A program made the position numbers and the translations under genes. Source: Candidatus Scalindua sp. (lineage in GTDB: Bacteria; Planctomycetota; Brocadiia; Brocadiales; Scalinduaceae). From it: 59,179 bases of DNA. Where the stretch lies: NCBI GenBank assembly GCA_021777035.1, contig JAIQZR010000133.1, positions 1-59,179 of the forward strand, given 5' to 3'. Position 1 is the first letter of the stretch; the number at the start of each line of letters is the position of its first letter. The notes beneath the pieces are model-generated. The model ran no database searches, was not told where the DNA came from, and saw only the letters and a list, made by a program, of their open reading frames with translations. Shown here one piece after another: positions 9,901 to 18,079 of the stretch.

Positions 9901-10773
9901 ATGATAAAATTCAGAACAAAACTGAGAATATTTATAATACCGTTAGCCTGTACAATGCTAATCGGTTGGATAGACCCTGCCTCAGATATAAATGAGGAAG
10001 GGATCCGGCTTTACAATGAAAAATCGTATGATGAGGCAATAAGTAGGTTTGCGGACGCGCAGTTACATCTACCTAAGTCAGATTCATTGGAGTTTAATAT
10101 TGCAAATACACATTTTCAAGAGGGCAAGCTTCCTGAGGCAGAAAAAGCTTATAAAAATACTTTACGTTCAAAAGATACTTCCTTAAAGGCAAAAGCCAAT
10201 TATAATATGGGTAATACTCTCTACAAACAGGGCAAACTCAATGAATCACTTGACTTTTATAAGAAGGCCATTGAGTTGGCAGGAGATAGGGCTGACAAGA
10301 ATGGCGATGAAATGAAAGGGATCAAAGAGGATGCGAAATATAACTATGAATTTGTGCAGAAAAAAATGGAAGAGATGAAGCAAGAGCAGCAGGAAAGACA
10401 GGATCAGGAAGAGCAGGAAAAAGAGGACAAGGAAGAAGAGGACAAACAGGAAGAACAAAAAGAGGGGGATAAACCTCCGGAGGAAAAAGATCCTGAAGAT
10501 CAGGAAGAGAAGCAGGATCAACAACAAAAACAGGATCAGGAAAAAAAGGATCAGGAGGAGCAAGATAAAGGCAATCGGGGTGAGCAACAAAAGGAGCAGC
10601 CGCCTGAAGAGGGAAAGAAAGAATCGCCCCCACCTCCTCATGAGAAAAAGGAGATGACAAAGGAAGAAGCGGAAAGGATCCTTCAAGCATTGAAGCAATC
10701 AGAAGAGTCCGCTCGAGAGATGCAAGAAAAAGAAAACGAATCTGCACAATTTGAGACAGAGAAAAACTGGTAA
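9901..10773 (+). CDS. batC: BatC-like TPR protein with charged tail
   Basis: 290 residues. A hydrophobic N-terminus (residues 1-26) looks like a signal or anchor. TPR repeats follow (about residues 28-145; GIRLYNEKSYDEAISRF, then NYNMGNTLYKQGKLNESL). Residues 150-260 are an extreme Gln/Glu/Lys/Asp low-complexity stretch, likely disordered or coiled coil. This matches BatC, a TPR partner of BatB. The repeated coding bases make the opposite strand look open, but that is a composition artefact. Its stop is 3 bases before batD. Confidence 0.85.
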   Translation: MIKFRTKLRIFIIPLACTMLIGWIDPASDINEEGIRLYNEKSYDEAISRFADAQLHLPKSDSLEFNIANTHFQEGKLPEAEKAYKNTLRSKDTSLKAKANYNMGNTLYKQGKLNESLDFYKKAIELAGDRADKNGDEMKGIKEDAKYNYEFVQKKMEEMKQEQQERQDQEEQEKEDKEEEDKQEEQKEGDKPPEEKDPEDQEEKQDQQQKQDQEKKDQEEQDKGNRGEQQKEQPPEEGKKESPPPPHEKKEMTKEEAERILQALKQSEESAREMQEKENESAQFETEKNW

Positions 10774-10776
10774 AAT

Positions 10777-12600
10777 ATGATGGGAAAAGTTTTTTCAATA
10801 ATAATTTTGGTGTTCATGCTTAATGTAGTTTCCACTGCTTATGCTAAAGAAATAAATGTTGTAATTAGCGTGGACAAAAACAGGGTTGAAGTAGGTAGCC
10901 ATATTCGTCTTACGGTCGGTGTGCAGGGGGCTTTTGACACGGACATACCAAAATTATCTGTGCCAGAAAGTTTTTCTTTAATGTTCGGACCAAGTGTGTC
11001 AACACAAACAACGATAACAAACAACGTTGTCAAGGTCTTCCGGGGTTTTATGTATGGGTTCAGCCCAAGAGAAAAGGGTAAATTTGAAATAGGCCCTGTG
11101 ACTTTAGAATATAAGGGGAAAACATATACATCAAATTCAATTAATATTGAGGTGATAGAAAGAACACCATTTGAAGGACACATAGATAAAAATGATACAA
11201 GTGGGAAAAGAGTAGATGTTAACAAAATGGTGTTTGTTGAGCTTGTAACTGACAAGAAAGAGGTCTATATCTATGAAGAAATAATTCAATCCTTTAAACT
11301 ATACTTCCAGAAAAACTTGCCAATAGATGACCTTGATTATGTTGCTGCTTCGACGAAGAGCTTTCTTGCTGAAAAGCTTGGTGATGAGAGACGCTATGAA
11401 GAAGTACGTGATGGAATACTTTATAATGTTATAGAACTTCGTACGGCGCTTTTCCCCCTGGTTACCGGTAAAATAGAGATACCTCCTGCGAGTTTTAAAT
11501 GTAATATTATAATTAGAGAACAAAGGTCTCGGGGTTCTCTATTTGATGAATTCATGGGTGGACGTGGCCGAAGGTATCCTGTAGAAAGGAGCACGGCGCC
11601 GGTAAAGTTAGTAATAAAACCTCTACCGACTGTTGACAAACCTGAAGCATTTAATGGCGCGGTAGGGAAGTATACCATGGATGTTCTTGCAAAGCCCACA
11701 AAAGTAATAGTTGGTGATCCGATAACATTAACGATAAATATTCGTGGAGAGGGAAACATTCAGACAATAGGTGGGCCTCTACTGGCTCCTGATGGAATGA
11801 AAGACTTTAAAGCTTATGATTACGAGGCGAAGGTGACAATAACAGACAGAGGAGACGGCATAAAGGGAGAAAAGCTTTTTAGTAGGGTAATTGAACCGCA
11901 GAGCGAAAATGTTGGCGCTGTACCCGGGATTTCATTCAGTTACTTTGATCCGGATCTTGAGAAATATAAAACACTGGCTTACGGGCCAATTCCTATTGAG
12001 GTAGAACACTCCGATATAGAAATCCCCATACGTTTATCTGTTGAAGGTGTCGGAATAGCAAAGGGACGGGTTAAAATATTAACCAAAGACATTCTGCCTA
12101 TTATGTCTGATTTATACTCATTTAAGAATCATGGGCTTGATATATATAAGAGGTCTCTCCTCCTGGCTATTGTCTTTATAGTACCAATACTTATAGTGGT
12201 TGCATGTATTTATGTGCAGAGGCATAGGAAGCTACTGCATACCGATGTAGGTTATGCAAGAAAGAAACGGGCAATGGCCCATGCACAGAAACATCTTTCA
12301 AACGCGAGAGAGCTATTACAACTTGATAATCCGTCAGAGTTTTATGCCACACTGGCCAGGACTATTCTTAAGCATATAGCGGACAAGTTAAATGTAACAC
12401 CGGCGGCTGTCACGTCAGACAATATTTACGATATGTTGGAAAAACGTGGTGTATCGAATGATGTGATAAAGGAACTGAGACAGTGTCTTGAGTCCTGCGA
12501 TTACGGTAGGTTCTCTTCAGGGCAGCTGTCTAAAGCACAGATGGAGTCAACACTGGATACCACTGAACAAGTTATAGCACATCTGGAAAAACAATTATGA
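10777..12600 (+). CDS. batD: BatD-like protein (oxygen tolerance family)
   Basis: 607 residues: signal peptide (about 1-23), a long beta-rich periplasmic region with two or more BatD repeats (VVISVDKNRVEVGSHIRLTVGVQG; later a GDPITLTINIRGEGN segment), one transmembrane helix near 458-480 and a cytoplasmic helical tail. This is the standard BatD layout. It starts 3 bases after batC and its stop overlaps the batE start (ATGA), so batC-batD-batE are translationally coupled. Confidence 0.88.
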   Translation: MMGKVFSIIILVFMLNVVSTAYAKEINVVISVDKNRVEVGSHIRLTVGVQGAFDTDIPKLSVPESFSLMFGPSVSTQTTITNNVVKVFRGFMYGFSPREKGKFEIGPVTLEYKGKTYTSNSINIEVIERTPFEGHIDKNDTSGKRVDVNKMVFVELVTDKKEVYIYEEIIQSFKLYFQKNLPIDDLDYVAASTKSFLAEKLGDERRYEEVRDGILYNVIELRTALFPLVTGKIEIPPASFKCNIIIREQRSRGSLFDEFMGGRGRRYPVERSTAPVKLVIKPLPTVDKPEAFNGAVGKYTMDVLAKPTKVIVGDPITLTINIRGEGNIQTIGGPLLAPDGMKDFKAYDYEAKVTITDRGDGIKGEKLFSRVIEPQSENVGAVPGISFSYFDPDLEKYKTLAYGPIPIEVEHSDIEIPIRLSVEGVGIAKGRVKILTKDILPIMSDLYSFKNHGLDIYKRSLLLAIVFIVPILIVVACIYVQRHRKLLHTDVGYARKKRAMAHAQKHLSNARELLQLDNPSEFYATLARTILKHIADKLNVTPAAVTSDNIYDMLEKRGVSNDVIKELRQCLESCDYGRFSSGQLSKAQMESTLDTTEQVIAHLEKQL

Positions 12601-13454
12601 GACAAAAAAACATACTGATAATTATTATTTTGAGTTTTGTGTTTCTCTTTGAGGGGAATTATTTAACTGAGGTTTTTGCGCGTGATAACGCGGCCGATAT
12701 CTTCTTCAGGGCAAACAAGGAATATAGTGCCGGACAGAAGGCCGTGTCTGAAAAGAAAAAGGAGGATGCTATTGGAAAGTTTGAACAAGCTGTCAGTTTG
12801 TACGAACAACTGCTTGAATCCGGTTTCATAAACGGGCAGATATACTACAATCTGGGTAATGCCCATTATCGACTGGGTATGCCGGGGAAAGCAATTATGT
12901 ATTATCGCAGGGCAGAGAAATTGCTTCCGAGAGATGCTGACATAAAGGCAAACATAAGCCTGTTAAAACGTGATTTTGTCGAGAGAGAGACAATTGGTCA
13001 AACGCCGGAGATTCTCAGGGTTGCGTGTTTTTGGTATTTCTACCTTAGCTTGAATGAGATCACTGTCATTACCATATATATGTATTTTGCACTCATTGCA
13101 TCTATACTCTCTATCATTTTTTTAAGATTGCAATGGCTCAAAAAGATGAGCGTTGTTTTTGCGTCCTGCTTTCTTGTGTTGGTCATTTCTCTGGGAATGA
13201 AGGCGCATAATCAATCTGCCGAAATGGGAGTGGTGGTTGTTGGTGAGAGTAAGATAAGGTATGGTCCTGGCGAAGAGTACGGTCCCAGGTTTGAGATACA
13301 CGAAGGTGCTGAGGTAAGGATCATTGAGGAAGAAGATAAGTGGTGTAAGGTTTACGTTTTCGTGGATGTAGAAGACATTCATGACGATGAAGGTAAGAAA
13401 GAGGTCGAGTCCAAAACAGGCTGGATACCAAAATCAGAACTGGGAAAGATTTAA
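12597..13454 (+). CDS. batE: BatE-like TPR and SH3 protein
   Basis: 285 residues. An N-terminal signal or anchor is followed by TPR repeats (about 35-125; YNLGNAHYRLGMPGKAIMYYRRAE), two transmembrane helices (about 155-175 and 180-200) and a C-terminal bacterial SH3-like domain (RYGPGEEYGPRFEIHEGAEV to GWIPKSEL). TPR-TM-SH3 is the BatE arrangement. The start overlaps the batD stop by 4 bases. It is the last gene of the locus; the following 1 kb is non-coding. Confidence 0.86.
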   Translation: MRQKNILIIIILSFVFLFEGNYLTEVFARDNAADIFFRANKEYSAGQKAVSEKKKEDAIGKFEQAVSLYEQLLESGFINGQIYYNLGNAHYRLGMPGKAIMYYRRAEKLLPRDADIKANISLLKRDFVERETIGQTPEILRVACFWYFYLSLNEITVITIYMYFALIASILSIIFLRLQWLKKMSVVFASCFLVLVISLGMKAHNQSAEMGVVVVGESKIRYGPGEEYGPRFEIHEGAEVRIIEEEDKWCKVYVFVDVEDIHDDEGKKEVESKTGWIPKSELGKI

Positions 13455-13503: not shown

Positions 13504-13690
13504 ATACTGAAAAAAGTAAGGCGGGGATTATCTCCATGTTACTCAAATATGAGTATTTTTTTATTTGTGAGAAAGAGCCCCGCGCTTTATATTAAAAGCC
13601 TTCACTAAGATACTACATGTCGTAGTTCATCATTAGACTGTTACTAGATATAGTACTAATAAGTAACAAAAAGTCAAGCGTAAATCCCAT
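13504..13690 (+). ncRNA. Candidate structured RNA element, copy 1 (strand uncertain)
   Basis: The core 13520-13585 differs at one base from copy 2. GCGGGG (13521-13526) can pair with CCCCGC (near 13579-13584), enclosing a TACTCA/TGAGTA hairpin. Downstream a second hairpin, ACTAC/GTAGT, differs in sequence but not in pairing from copy 2: an A-T pair here is G-C there, and a C-G pair here is T-G there. That pattern points to selection on RNA or cruciform structure. The flanking ATACTGAAA and the downstream AAAAGTCAAG block are also shared. Not a riboswitch family I recognise. Strand is assumed from the neighbouring genes. Confidence 0.5.
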
Positions 13691-13835
13691 AAATTTCAAG
13701 TCGTAAATCTTCTCGTTTTTAACTTCCGTGCAAGTCGGTAGTTAAGTAATCTCTGGCTTCTCCTTCTCTTATTCAAAGAAGGTCATGATACCAGGGAGGC
13801 TTTAACGTACTTGTCTCTGATTATTCACATCAACC

Positions 13836-14021
13836 ATACTGAAAGAAGTTTGTGGCGGGGATTATCTCCATGTTACTCAAATATGAGTATTTTTTTATTT
13901 GTGAGCAAGAGCCCCGCACATTATATTTAAAAACCGCACCAAGACGCTATATGCCGTAGCGTGGTATCAGATCATCACCATATATAGTATAAATAGATTG
14001 CAAAAGTCAAGTACAAATCCC
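13836..14021 (+). ncRNA. Candidate structured RNA element, copy 2 (strand uncertain)
   Basis: Second copy, about 333 bases downstream of the first and in the same orientation. The GGCGGGG...GAGCCCCGC core (13854-13918) is almost identical to copy 1, whereas the 3' portion has diverged. Its hairpin CGCTA/TAGCG (around 13945-13962) keeps and lengthens the pairing seen in copy 1. The spacer between the copies shows no similarity. A tandem repeat or a pair of small RNAs are both possible. Confidence 0.5.
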
Positions 14022-14521
14022 TCTTTTTTTTTCTTTGCTTTTAACTCCAATATTTTTAAGTATTTATCTACTTCCAGATTAGTTCTTCGTAAATCGTAAT
14101 ACACAAACCTTCAATCTTTTTGTTTACCAGACGTGCTTTCTGGCGACCCTCTTTTTTCCGCTCTCTGTGTGTCTTTTTGCGAACAACCTCTTTTGTCTTG
14201 CAAAACACCCCAGCCATTTTATAATAACCTTCGGGAGGCAGGTTGAAGAAACGAAGGACAAAGGCCAGGGTTCATATGTATTAATAAAACGGCTAATTAA
14301 ATAGTCTCCTGGTTTCTGTTTATTATGTTTGCTCATGATTTGGTGTATCGGGCTCATAGCAGATGGCTCAAAATGCCAGCTGATAAATTTGATAACTTAG
14401 TTACATTTTTTATAAAAATTTTGTAACATATTCCTTTTAAAGGACTTTTTATTTGACAACTAAGTTATAGATCTGAAAATATGAAGACAGAAAATATTTT
14501 ATGGTGTAATAATATAAAGGA

Positions 14522-15367
14522 GTGTGTGTTCTGGCTTCAAGAATAGTAACTCATGGCGGTGGCCCGCATATGGATGATCTGATCTCCGTTTGCATTGTGT
14601 TGGCAATGGACAGCGATGTAAAATGTGTAGAGCGTCGGCCTGCGGTACCTGAAGAGATTGCAGATTCTAAAGTATGGGTGCTGGATCAGGGGGGTGTTCA
14701 TGATCCTGGAAACAGAAACTTTGATCACCATCAATTTCCGGCTGGTACAAGGAAATGTACATTAAGCCTCCTTGCTGATCATTTTGACCTCAAGAACGAT
14801 TTGGATGAGATGGTCTGGTTTAGAGCGCTTGTACTTGATGATTCCCTGGGTTCTATTAAAACTGCTGGTGAGCTTGGTTGTAGTGCAACTTTACTGAAGG
14901 GCCTACTAAGAGGGGCGATAAACGAATTTGTCTTAGCCAGGTTCGAACAGGTAAGGACGCTCGACTCTGATAGCGAACTGATAAAGCTCCTCTCTGCAAT
15001 AGGTACTCACATAGTTACAGATATTAGAAACAAGAAAGAGCGTATTCAGCTCATTCGGAAAAAAGCGGAGATCGAAGAGGTGAACGGCCTGAACGTGCTT
15101 TTCTTTATGGAGGATGTGCCTGATCCGAAATTGAGTCTTATCCCATATTTAAAAGAGACAGGTAAAAACGCAGCTGTTCTGGTCGTTGCGAATACACGTG
15201 ATCACGGATGGTCGCTCAGCAGGATTGGCGATCACCCCCGGGTAGATTTCAGACGTATTAAAGGCGCGAATGATGTGCTCTTTGTACACGCAAACGGTTT
15301 CGTCGCAAAAACCAGGCAAATTGAGAAATCGGCAATAATTCGCCTTTTAGAGACTGCAATTGTGTAA
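14522..15367 (+). CDS. MYG1/UPF0160-like putative metal-dependent hydrolase
   Basis: 281 residues. The N-terminal THGGGPHMDD and the internal DQGGVHDPGNRNFDHHQ match the metal-binding motifs of the MYG1 (UPF0160) family, whose eukaryotic members are 3'-5' RNA exonucleases of the DHH superfamily. It is shorter and more divergent than typical MYG1, so the assignment is to the superfamily. The start is uncertain: the GTG at 14522 overlaps the AAAGGAG ribosome site (about 14516-14522); CTG at 14531 would have better spacing. A dyad lies just upstream. Confidence 0.65.
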   Translation: MCVLASRIVTHGGGPHMDDLISVCIVLAMDSDVKCVERRPAVPEEIADSKVWVLDQGGVHDPGNRNFDHHQFPAGTRKCTLSLLADHFDLKNDLDEMVWFRALVLDDSLGSIKTAGELGCSATLLKGLLRGAINEFVLARFEQVRTLDSDSELIKLLSAIGTHIVTDIRNKKERIQLIRKKAEIEEVNGLNVLFFMEDVPDPKLSLIPYLKETGKNAAVLVVANTRDHGWSLSRIGDHPRVDFRRIKGANDVLFVHANGFVAKTRQIEKSAIIRLLETAIV

Positions 15368-17393: not shown

Positions 17394-18079
17394 ATGAGAA
17401 ATCAATTTGTCATTCATAGCATTGCTATTACTCTGGCTCTTAGCTGTATAGCGTGGTTCTGGCCACCGATACTCTGGGCATTTATCATCTTAGGCCCATT
17501 GATTCTGATGGGGGTATACGATATGTTCCAGGCCAAACATGCTATCAAGCGGAACTTTCCTTTGCTCGGGAGAGGGCGGTATCTGCTTGAAAATATGGGG
17601 CCCAAGGTAAACCAGTACTTCATCGAGTCGGAGCCGAAGGACGGCCTTTTCACCGAAAATTCAGATCTATTGTTTACCAGCGGGCGAAACGAGAGCTGGA
17701 CACGCAAGCCTTTGGCACACAGATGGACGTTTATAAAGAAGGATACGAGTGGATGGAGTACTCCATTTACCCTTTAGACGGTGAAAAACTGGATCACGCT
17801 CCCAGAGTAGTAATAGGCGGAGATGATTGCAAACAGCCTTATTCTGCCAGTATCTTCAACATTTCCGCTATGAGTTATGGATCACTTAGCAAGAATGCTG
17901 TCCTGGCACTGAACGGAGGAGCAAAAACCGGAGGGTTTGCTCATAACACAGGAGAAGGAGGTATCTTGCCTGCAGACAAAAACACTCCTGAAGTTGCTGA
18001 AATCAGGCCAGTCTTAATTCAAAATCCAAAACACTTATGCGATAGCTTCTTCTCCCTATTCGCATTAAAGAGGGGCTAA
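17394..18079 (+). pseudogene. Glutamate synthase-family (FMN-binding) remnant, frameshifted and truncated
   Basis: The first frame (17394 on) encodes two N-terminal membrane helices and the family signature RNFPLLGRGRYLLE...GPKVNQYFIES. Homology then continues in the +2 frame from about 17664 (SIVYQRAK, then FGTQMDVYKEGYEW, FNISAMSYGSLS, GGFAHNTGEGG). The reading frame shifts near 17655-17665. Family similarity stops after GEGG (about 17966) and an unrelated tail runs to a stop at 18079, so most of the FMN-binding barrel is missing (about 190 of some 500 residues). Its end overlaps the ygiQ stop on the other strand. Inactive. Confidence 0.82.

Follow-up and report, generated by a model that had tools for sequence, protein, structure and literature searches.

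What occupies the intergenic space between the bat gene cluster and a MYG1-like gene in a Candidatus Scalindua genome? The stretch of DNA analysed here (59,179 nucleotides of contig JAIQZR010000133.1, hereafter the window) carries between batE (end 13454) and the MYG1-like gene (start 14522) two copies of a sequence of about 185 nt each. A first-pass annotation had described them as a tandem element with copies about 333 bases apart, sharing a core with a single difference in which GCGGGG/CCCCGC pairing surrounds a TACTCA/TGAGTA hairpin, and had named batE and the MYG1-like gene as the nearby genes. This description was borne out: repeat search and blastn place the copies 332-334 nt apart from start to start, their cores differ at 1 of 64 columns, the stem is present, and the two genes flank the pair. 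Judging from the features assembled below, the element is most likely an undescribed small regulatory RNA. The positions on which the argument depends are the following.

13504-13688, minus strand: element copy 1, type 1 (repeat search, blastn, homologues; type from the element tree)
13836-14021, minus strand: element copy 2, type 2 outside the core (repeat search, blastn; type from the element tree)
13521-13583, minus strand: core of copy 1, predicted rod closed by GCGGGG/CCCCGC with an inner TACTC/GAGTA hairpin (alignment, folding)
13855-13917, minus strand: core of copy 2 (alignment, folding)
13612-13626, no strand assigned: dyad or second hairpin of copy 1, ACTAC-N5-GTAGT (reading, pair tests)
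13946-13960, no strand assigned: dyad or second hairpin of copy 2, GCTAT-N5-GTAGC on the plus strand (reading, pair tests)
13672-13677, minus strand: -35-like TTGACT of copy 1 (promoter scan, pattern search)
13648-13655, minus strand: -10-like TACTATAT of copy 1 (promoter scan)
14005-14010, minus strand: -35-like TTGACT of copy 2 (pattern search; absent from the promoter-scanner list)
13982-13989, minus strand: -10-like TACTATAT of copy 2, spacing 15 (pattern search)
13586-13591, minus strand: alternative core-proximal -10-like TATAAA of copy 1 (by reading)
13920-13925, minus strand: alternative core-proximal -10-like TATAAT of copy 2 (by reading)
12597-13454, plus strand: batE-like gene with matches to TPR and SH3_3, the final gene of the bat cluster and convergent with the proposed RNA
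14522-15367, plus strand: MYG1-like gene, divergent from the proposed RNA

Over 185 nt the two copies are 78% identical (blastn), and in the repeat search they share 152 nt at 79% together with flanking blocks of 20 and 14 nt. An unfiltered covariance-model search of the window recovers both at about E 7e-32, the next match having E 0.25. A third copy was not found in the source genome by blastn, the other six hits being of 19-31 nt (E 0.19-0.67). Elsewhere in the window, short tandem repeats at 10388-10560, within the bat-cluster gene at 9901-10773, encode an acidic, Gln-rich tail. A single 522-aa frame of genome G012 is matched at 17394-18079 by two short frames (127 and 118 aa) that overlap, a comparison by which the gene is broken or cut short in the source genome.

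The first-pass annotation had proposed a covariance-model search of related genomes, and homologues were indeed found, in seven genomes that all belong to the same genus. Blastn of copy 1 against 197 genomes matches six other genomes of the genus with E values from 1.1e-48 to 1.8e-31, and the original observation is thus beyond chance. The covariance model was built from eight copies, namely copies 1 and 2 of the window and those of G004, G006, G007, G008, G010 and G012, which score 131-149 bits. With it, 7 carriers are recovered, among 13 genomes in the genus Candidatus Scalindua, 62 in the order and 75 in the class (the order and class searches used stricter filters), and none of the 62 other genomes of the class has the element. 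The source genome is the only one of the seven carriers with two highly similar copies. A pattern scan of genome contigs gave eight loci; five are counted as the copies of G008, G012, G004, G007 and G006 again, while the other three (L026, L029 and L032) look like chance by eye. No element was detected in an exact-pattern scan of viral contigs or in a plasmid search. Genome G013 was discarded as a carrier, since its two short blastn hits (22 and 34 nt) did not recur with the covariance model.

Six carriers have the bat cluster on the core side of the element. batE directly adjoins it in the window, G004 and G012, and other genes intervene in G010, G008 and G006; the short contig of G007 has no batE and shows, beside the element, a relative of the intervening protein of G010. 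The adjoining core-side gene changes between genomes and the element stays whole. A BatE tree, from which G007 (no batE on its short contig) and G002 (no BatE match) are absent, unites the six carriers in one clade with 100% ultrafast bootstrap and leaves five non-carrier members of the genus outside it. An unfiltered model search of 9-12 kb from batE onward in the non-carriers G011, G003, G001 and G009 gave one hit (E 3), and in G005 batE sits at the contig end; all genomes are drafts, and absence from the non-carriers is provisional. Weak model hits in eight batE-onward regions of genomes lacking the element (E 3, 4.9 and 9.9) and beside the copies of carriers (E 2.8-4.3) were taken as noise. 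Two split genes were also seen: between batE and the element of G006 (L048 6785-8311), two frames of 258 and 240 aa correspond to one 508-aa frame in G008, and at G014:C116:7903-8737 a batE-like gene is spread over two frames, its matches being interrupted by stop codons.

Conservation is concentrated in the core. Pairwise, the eight cores differ at 0-9 of 64-65 columns, whereas the stretch between CTTGACTTTT and the core differs at 9-41 of 93-98 columns. Fourfold sites of batE are 53-74% identical between the window genome and five other carriers. In the 66 nt beyond the 3' end, mean identity falls to 42% (range 25-66%) and 1 of 83 columns is invariant, so that the limits of conservation around the element are sharp. 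By these comparisons the core, its unpaired stretches included, is held by selection; since the unpaired stretches are held as well, the alignment suggests that the core is recognised by sequence as well as by shape. The element appears to be non-coding, as the eight copies have no conserved reading frame with codon-like variation: in the sole open frame that they share, 8, 7 and 9 of 14 columns vary by codon position. A leader peptide (window 13586-13655, minus strand) was considered and rejected; all eight copies keep 13 open codons before the TAG of the dyad, without codon-like variation, and indels upstream disrupt the open frame in some copies.

Whether a structure is being selected is a different matter. 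The second hairpin reads ACTAC-ATGTC-GTAGT in copy 1 and GCTAT-ATGCC-GTAGC in copy 2, and on the plus strand the outer A-T is replaced by G-C and the inner C-G by T-G, just as the first-pass annotation described; on the minus strand the inner pair of copy 2 becomes C-A. These changes had been taken as the signature of selection on structure, and further copies with co-varying stems had been named as what would support it. The argument proved weak. Of the 16 core pairs, 15 never vary among the eight copies, and on neither strand is there one that changes on both sides, so that they demonstrate constraint on sequence and cannot be used to test structure. Among the 21 named pairs only one, in the second hairpin, changes on both sides, in one sequence (on the minus strand A-U in six copies, G-C in one and G-U in one), and a single change of this kind is reached by 128 of 500 shuffles on the minus strand and 129 of 500 on the plus strand. 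Covariation is therefore rejected as proof, because the eight copies are too alike in the core. An alternative minus-strand RNAalifold fold has two such pairs, a number reached by 17 of 500 shuffles, and its two 5' helices are paired in 48 of 48 cells, although this fold was chosen on the same alignment. Symmetric changes would equally be shown by a DNA dyad bound by a protein. With respect to predicted energy, the core gives z values from -2.2 to -5.0 in the eight copies and on both strands, which supports a core structure on either strand; longer stretches of copy 2 give no such support, z for the copy as a whole being -0.5 (plus) and -0.6 (minus), or about -2 for the stretch taken in the eight-copy folding comparison.

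The strand can be approached through the blocks that flank the core. On the minus strand all eight copies are preceded by CTTGACTTTT, which is invariant, and by a block like TACTATAT, situated 14-16 nt after TTGACT and changed by one base in G010 (TACCATAT) and in G012 (CACTATAT). The order on this strand is promoter-like block, dyad, core and then a tail in which 5-9 of 14 positions are T, and the folding z of transcript-sized stretches is lower on the minus strand in six of the eight copies. Other observations weigh against a minus-strand RNA gene. A spacing of 14-16 nt is short for sigma-70, the promoter scanner lists copy 1 only (9/12) and gives 7 promoter-like sites against 3.9 in shuffles, and 41 of 100 shuffled windows contain the pattern when up to three mismatches are allowed. 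The T content of the tail is only moderate, and the scanner found no terminator-like site on either strand between 13400 and 14550. On balance the minus strand appears to be the likelier of the two.

The main alternative, a possible but clearly less probable reading, is that the functional RNA belongs to the plus strand, as a 3'-end element (a terminator, a stabiliser or a 3'-UTR-derived RNA) belonging to the bat cluster or to any gene that is directed towards it. In all seven carriers the nearest core-side gene does read towards the element. The named pairs hold slightly better on the plus strand (167 of 168 cells, with changes passing through G-U, vs 163 of 168 on the minus strand; 39 vs 36 of 40 for the second hairpin alone), the consensus energy is lower (-23.4 vs -19.4 kcal/mol), TACTCAAATATGAGTA is followed by TTTTTTT within the core in the window, and both copies contain a promoter-like TTGTGA/TATATT on this strand. 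However, the element is kept when the adjoining gene differs, the T-run after the inner hairpin is interrupted by GG or GGG in type 2 copies, no terminator-like site was given by the scanner, and the best conserved flank, CTTGACTTTT, is situated past the 3' end required for such a role.

Less probable still, and in our opinion doubtful, is that the element acts as DNA, with tandem protein-binding dyads and a core that would be an extruded hairpin or a nucleoprotein site. The distance from dyad A to the TACTATAT site is exact, without indels in the eight copies, and the distances on either side vary. Taken as its reverse complement, dyad A is more similar to the upstream site than mononucleotide shuffles are (p<0.05) in five copies but not in the other three (copy 2, G006 and G008), and the window has three matches to a consensus derived from these sites where 0.24 are expected, a post hoc count. 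On the other hand, the dyad is not enriched in the source genome (9 matches vs 18 for a reversed control), by which an operator regulon built on it was also rejected, and the 63-nt core with its conserved internal loops would be left unexplained.

We return to the minus strand, where the explanation that we prefer, with about even confidence, is a pair of sibling genes for a small non-coding RNA, directed towards batE and each probably with its own promoter. The transcript would be of about 140 nt if it starts from the TTGACT/TACTATAT promoter, or of about 80 nt if the core-proximal TATAAT-like box is used. Its 5' hairpin would be variable, followed by a rod of about 63 nt that hardly varies and in which CUCUUGCUCACAAAUAAAA looks unpaired. 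Such an RNA might act in trans, its invariant core binding a protein or target mRNAs, and the less conserved upstream part could let the siblings be expressed differently. Targets were sought by complementarity and none but the element itself emerged: the complement of 19 conserved loop positions, with up to three mismatches, matches only the two copies in the source genome.

The history of the two copies can be read from the other genomes. The element tree separates copy 1, G004 and G010 (type 1) from copy 2, G012, G007, G006 and G008 (type 2) with 98% support. Upstream flanks agree with this division (76% identity between copy 1 and G004 and 80% between copy 2 and G008, vs 50% between copies 1 and 2). 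Thus, copies 1 and 2 look like old paralogues whose duplication predates the separation of these genomes. In G010 a type 1 element is accompanied by an upstream flank that fits neither type (41-52%) and by a 3' flank resembling those of copy 2, G007 and G008. Copies 1 and 2 differ at only 1 of 64 core positions but at 36 of 96 upstream, while pairs of the same type differ at 4-7 positions in the core and at 16-22 upstream; by Fisher's test five of the six comparisons give p 0.004-0.018, and the one with G010 gives 0.15. The inner hairpin loop of copy 2 is moreover the shorter one seen in type 1. From this likeness we infer that the cores were probably homogenised by gene conversion from copy 1 into copy 2, a process by which the functional part of the two siblings would stay alike. 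Upstream of the proposed promoter, some 60-70 nt (14022-14110) are common to copy 2, G007, G006 and G008 (73-93%) and are kept although the neighbouring genes differ; this flank is single-copy in the source genome, and a dispersed repeat was ruled out.

The partner of such an RNA might be CsrA, and a CsrA-binding RNA (a sponge or a CsrA-dependent regulator) was considered as an explanation in itself, a very unlikely one. GGAGAU is invariant in the eight copies, ACAUGGAGAU resembles the CsrA site, and CsrA-domain matches occur at four places on three contigs of the source genome. Hfq gave no match there, a search in which 5 of 14 controls gave one. However, known CsrA sponges carry many GGA motifs, which in RNAs of the CsrB/RsmY type are placed in hairpin loops, whereas the Scalindua core has a single GGA, partly paired in the predicted fold, and the ACA preceding it varies. 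Two of the CsrA-domain matches lie side by side at G000:C184:286-531 in 104-codon open frames, and the others are on C197 and C62. A mobile or REP/MITE-like repeat, suggested by the two copies in the window and the differing adjoining genes in other genomes, can be practically discarded, as six genomes have one copy and one has two, and copies dispersed at unrelated sites were not found, and wherever the contig extends to the bat cluster, in six genomes, the element lies close to it.

With respect to described families, the element shares with those of Rfam (release 15) the appearance of a short structured intergenic sequence but reaches the gathering score of none in the window, in agreement with the first-pass annotation, which recognised no known family. 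At E<=5 only RF02707 (17.2 of 105 bits) and RF00579 (18.2 of 41 bits) appear. What survives of the earlier interpretation is that the element is conserved and non-coding, has no Rfam match and occurs in related genomes; covariation in it was not established. The concept of sibling small RNAs has been described (PMC4211561), an example being PrrF1 and PrrF2 of Pseudomonas. The likeness is in the arrangement: two highly similar, putative RNA genes in tandem, with a near-identical core and each apparently with its own upstream region. No sequence relation is expected, and the source genome has no Hfq match. Among the matches listed in a literature search for Scalindua or anammox with small or noncoding RNA, titles and opening lines of abstracts included no paper on such an RNA. 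In the parts of the Scalindua profunda paper that were available, Rfam was used for RNA sequences and small RNA, non-coding or intergenic are not mentioned (PMC3655542). According to the accessible part of a Kuenenia paper, reads of 53 structural RNA genes, sRNA included, were removed before analysis (PMC7438415).

Taken at its fullest, the proposal would be a new RNA family of one Scalindua clade, with twins kept alike by gene conversion while their promoters and leaders diverge, independent of Hfq and possibly acting via CsrA; in this complete form we offer it tentatively and consider it rather unlikely. The homogenised twins would be a compact case of how sibling RNAs stay alike. The carriers are marine ammonium-oxidising bacteria, important for nitrogen loss from the ocean, and a clade-specific RNA candidate with a near-invariant core could open the way to studying how RNA regulates genes in anammox bacteria.
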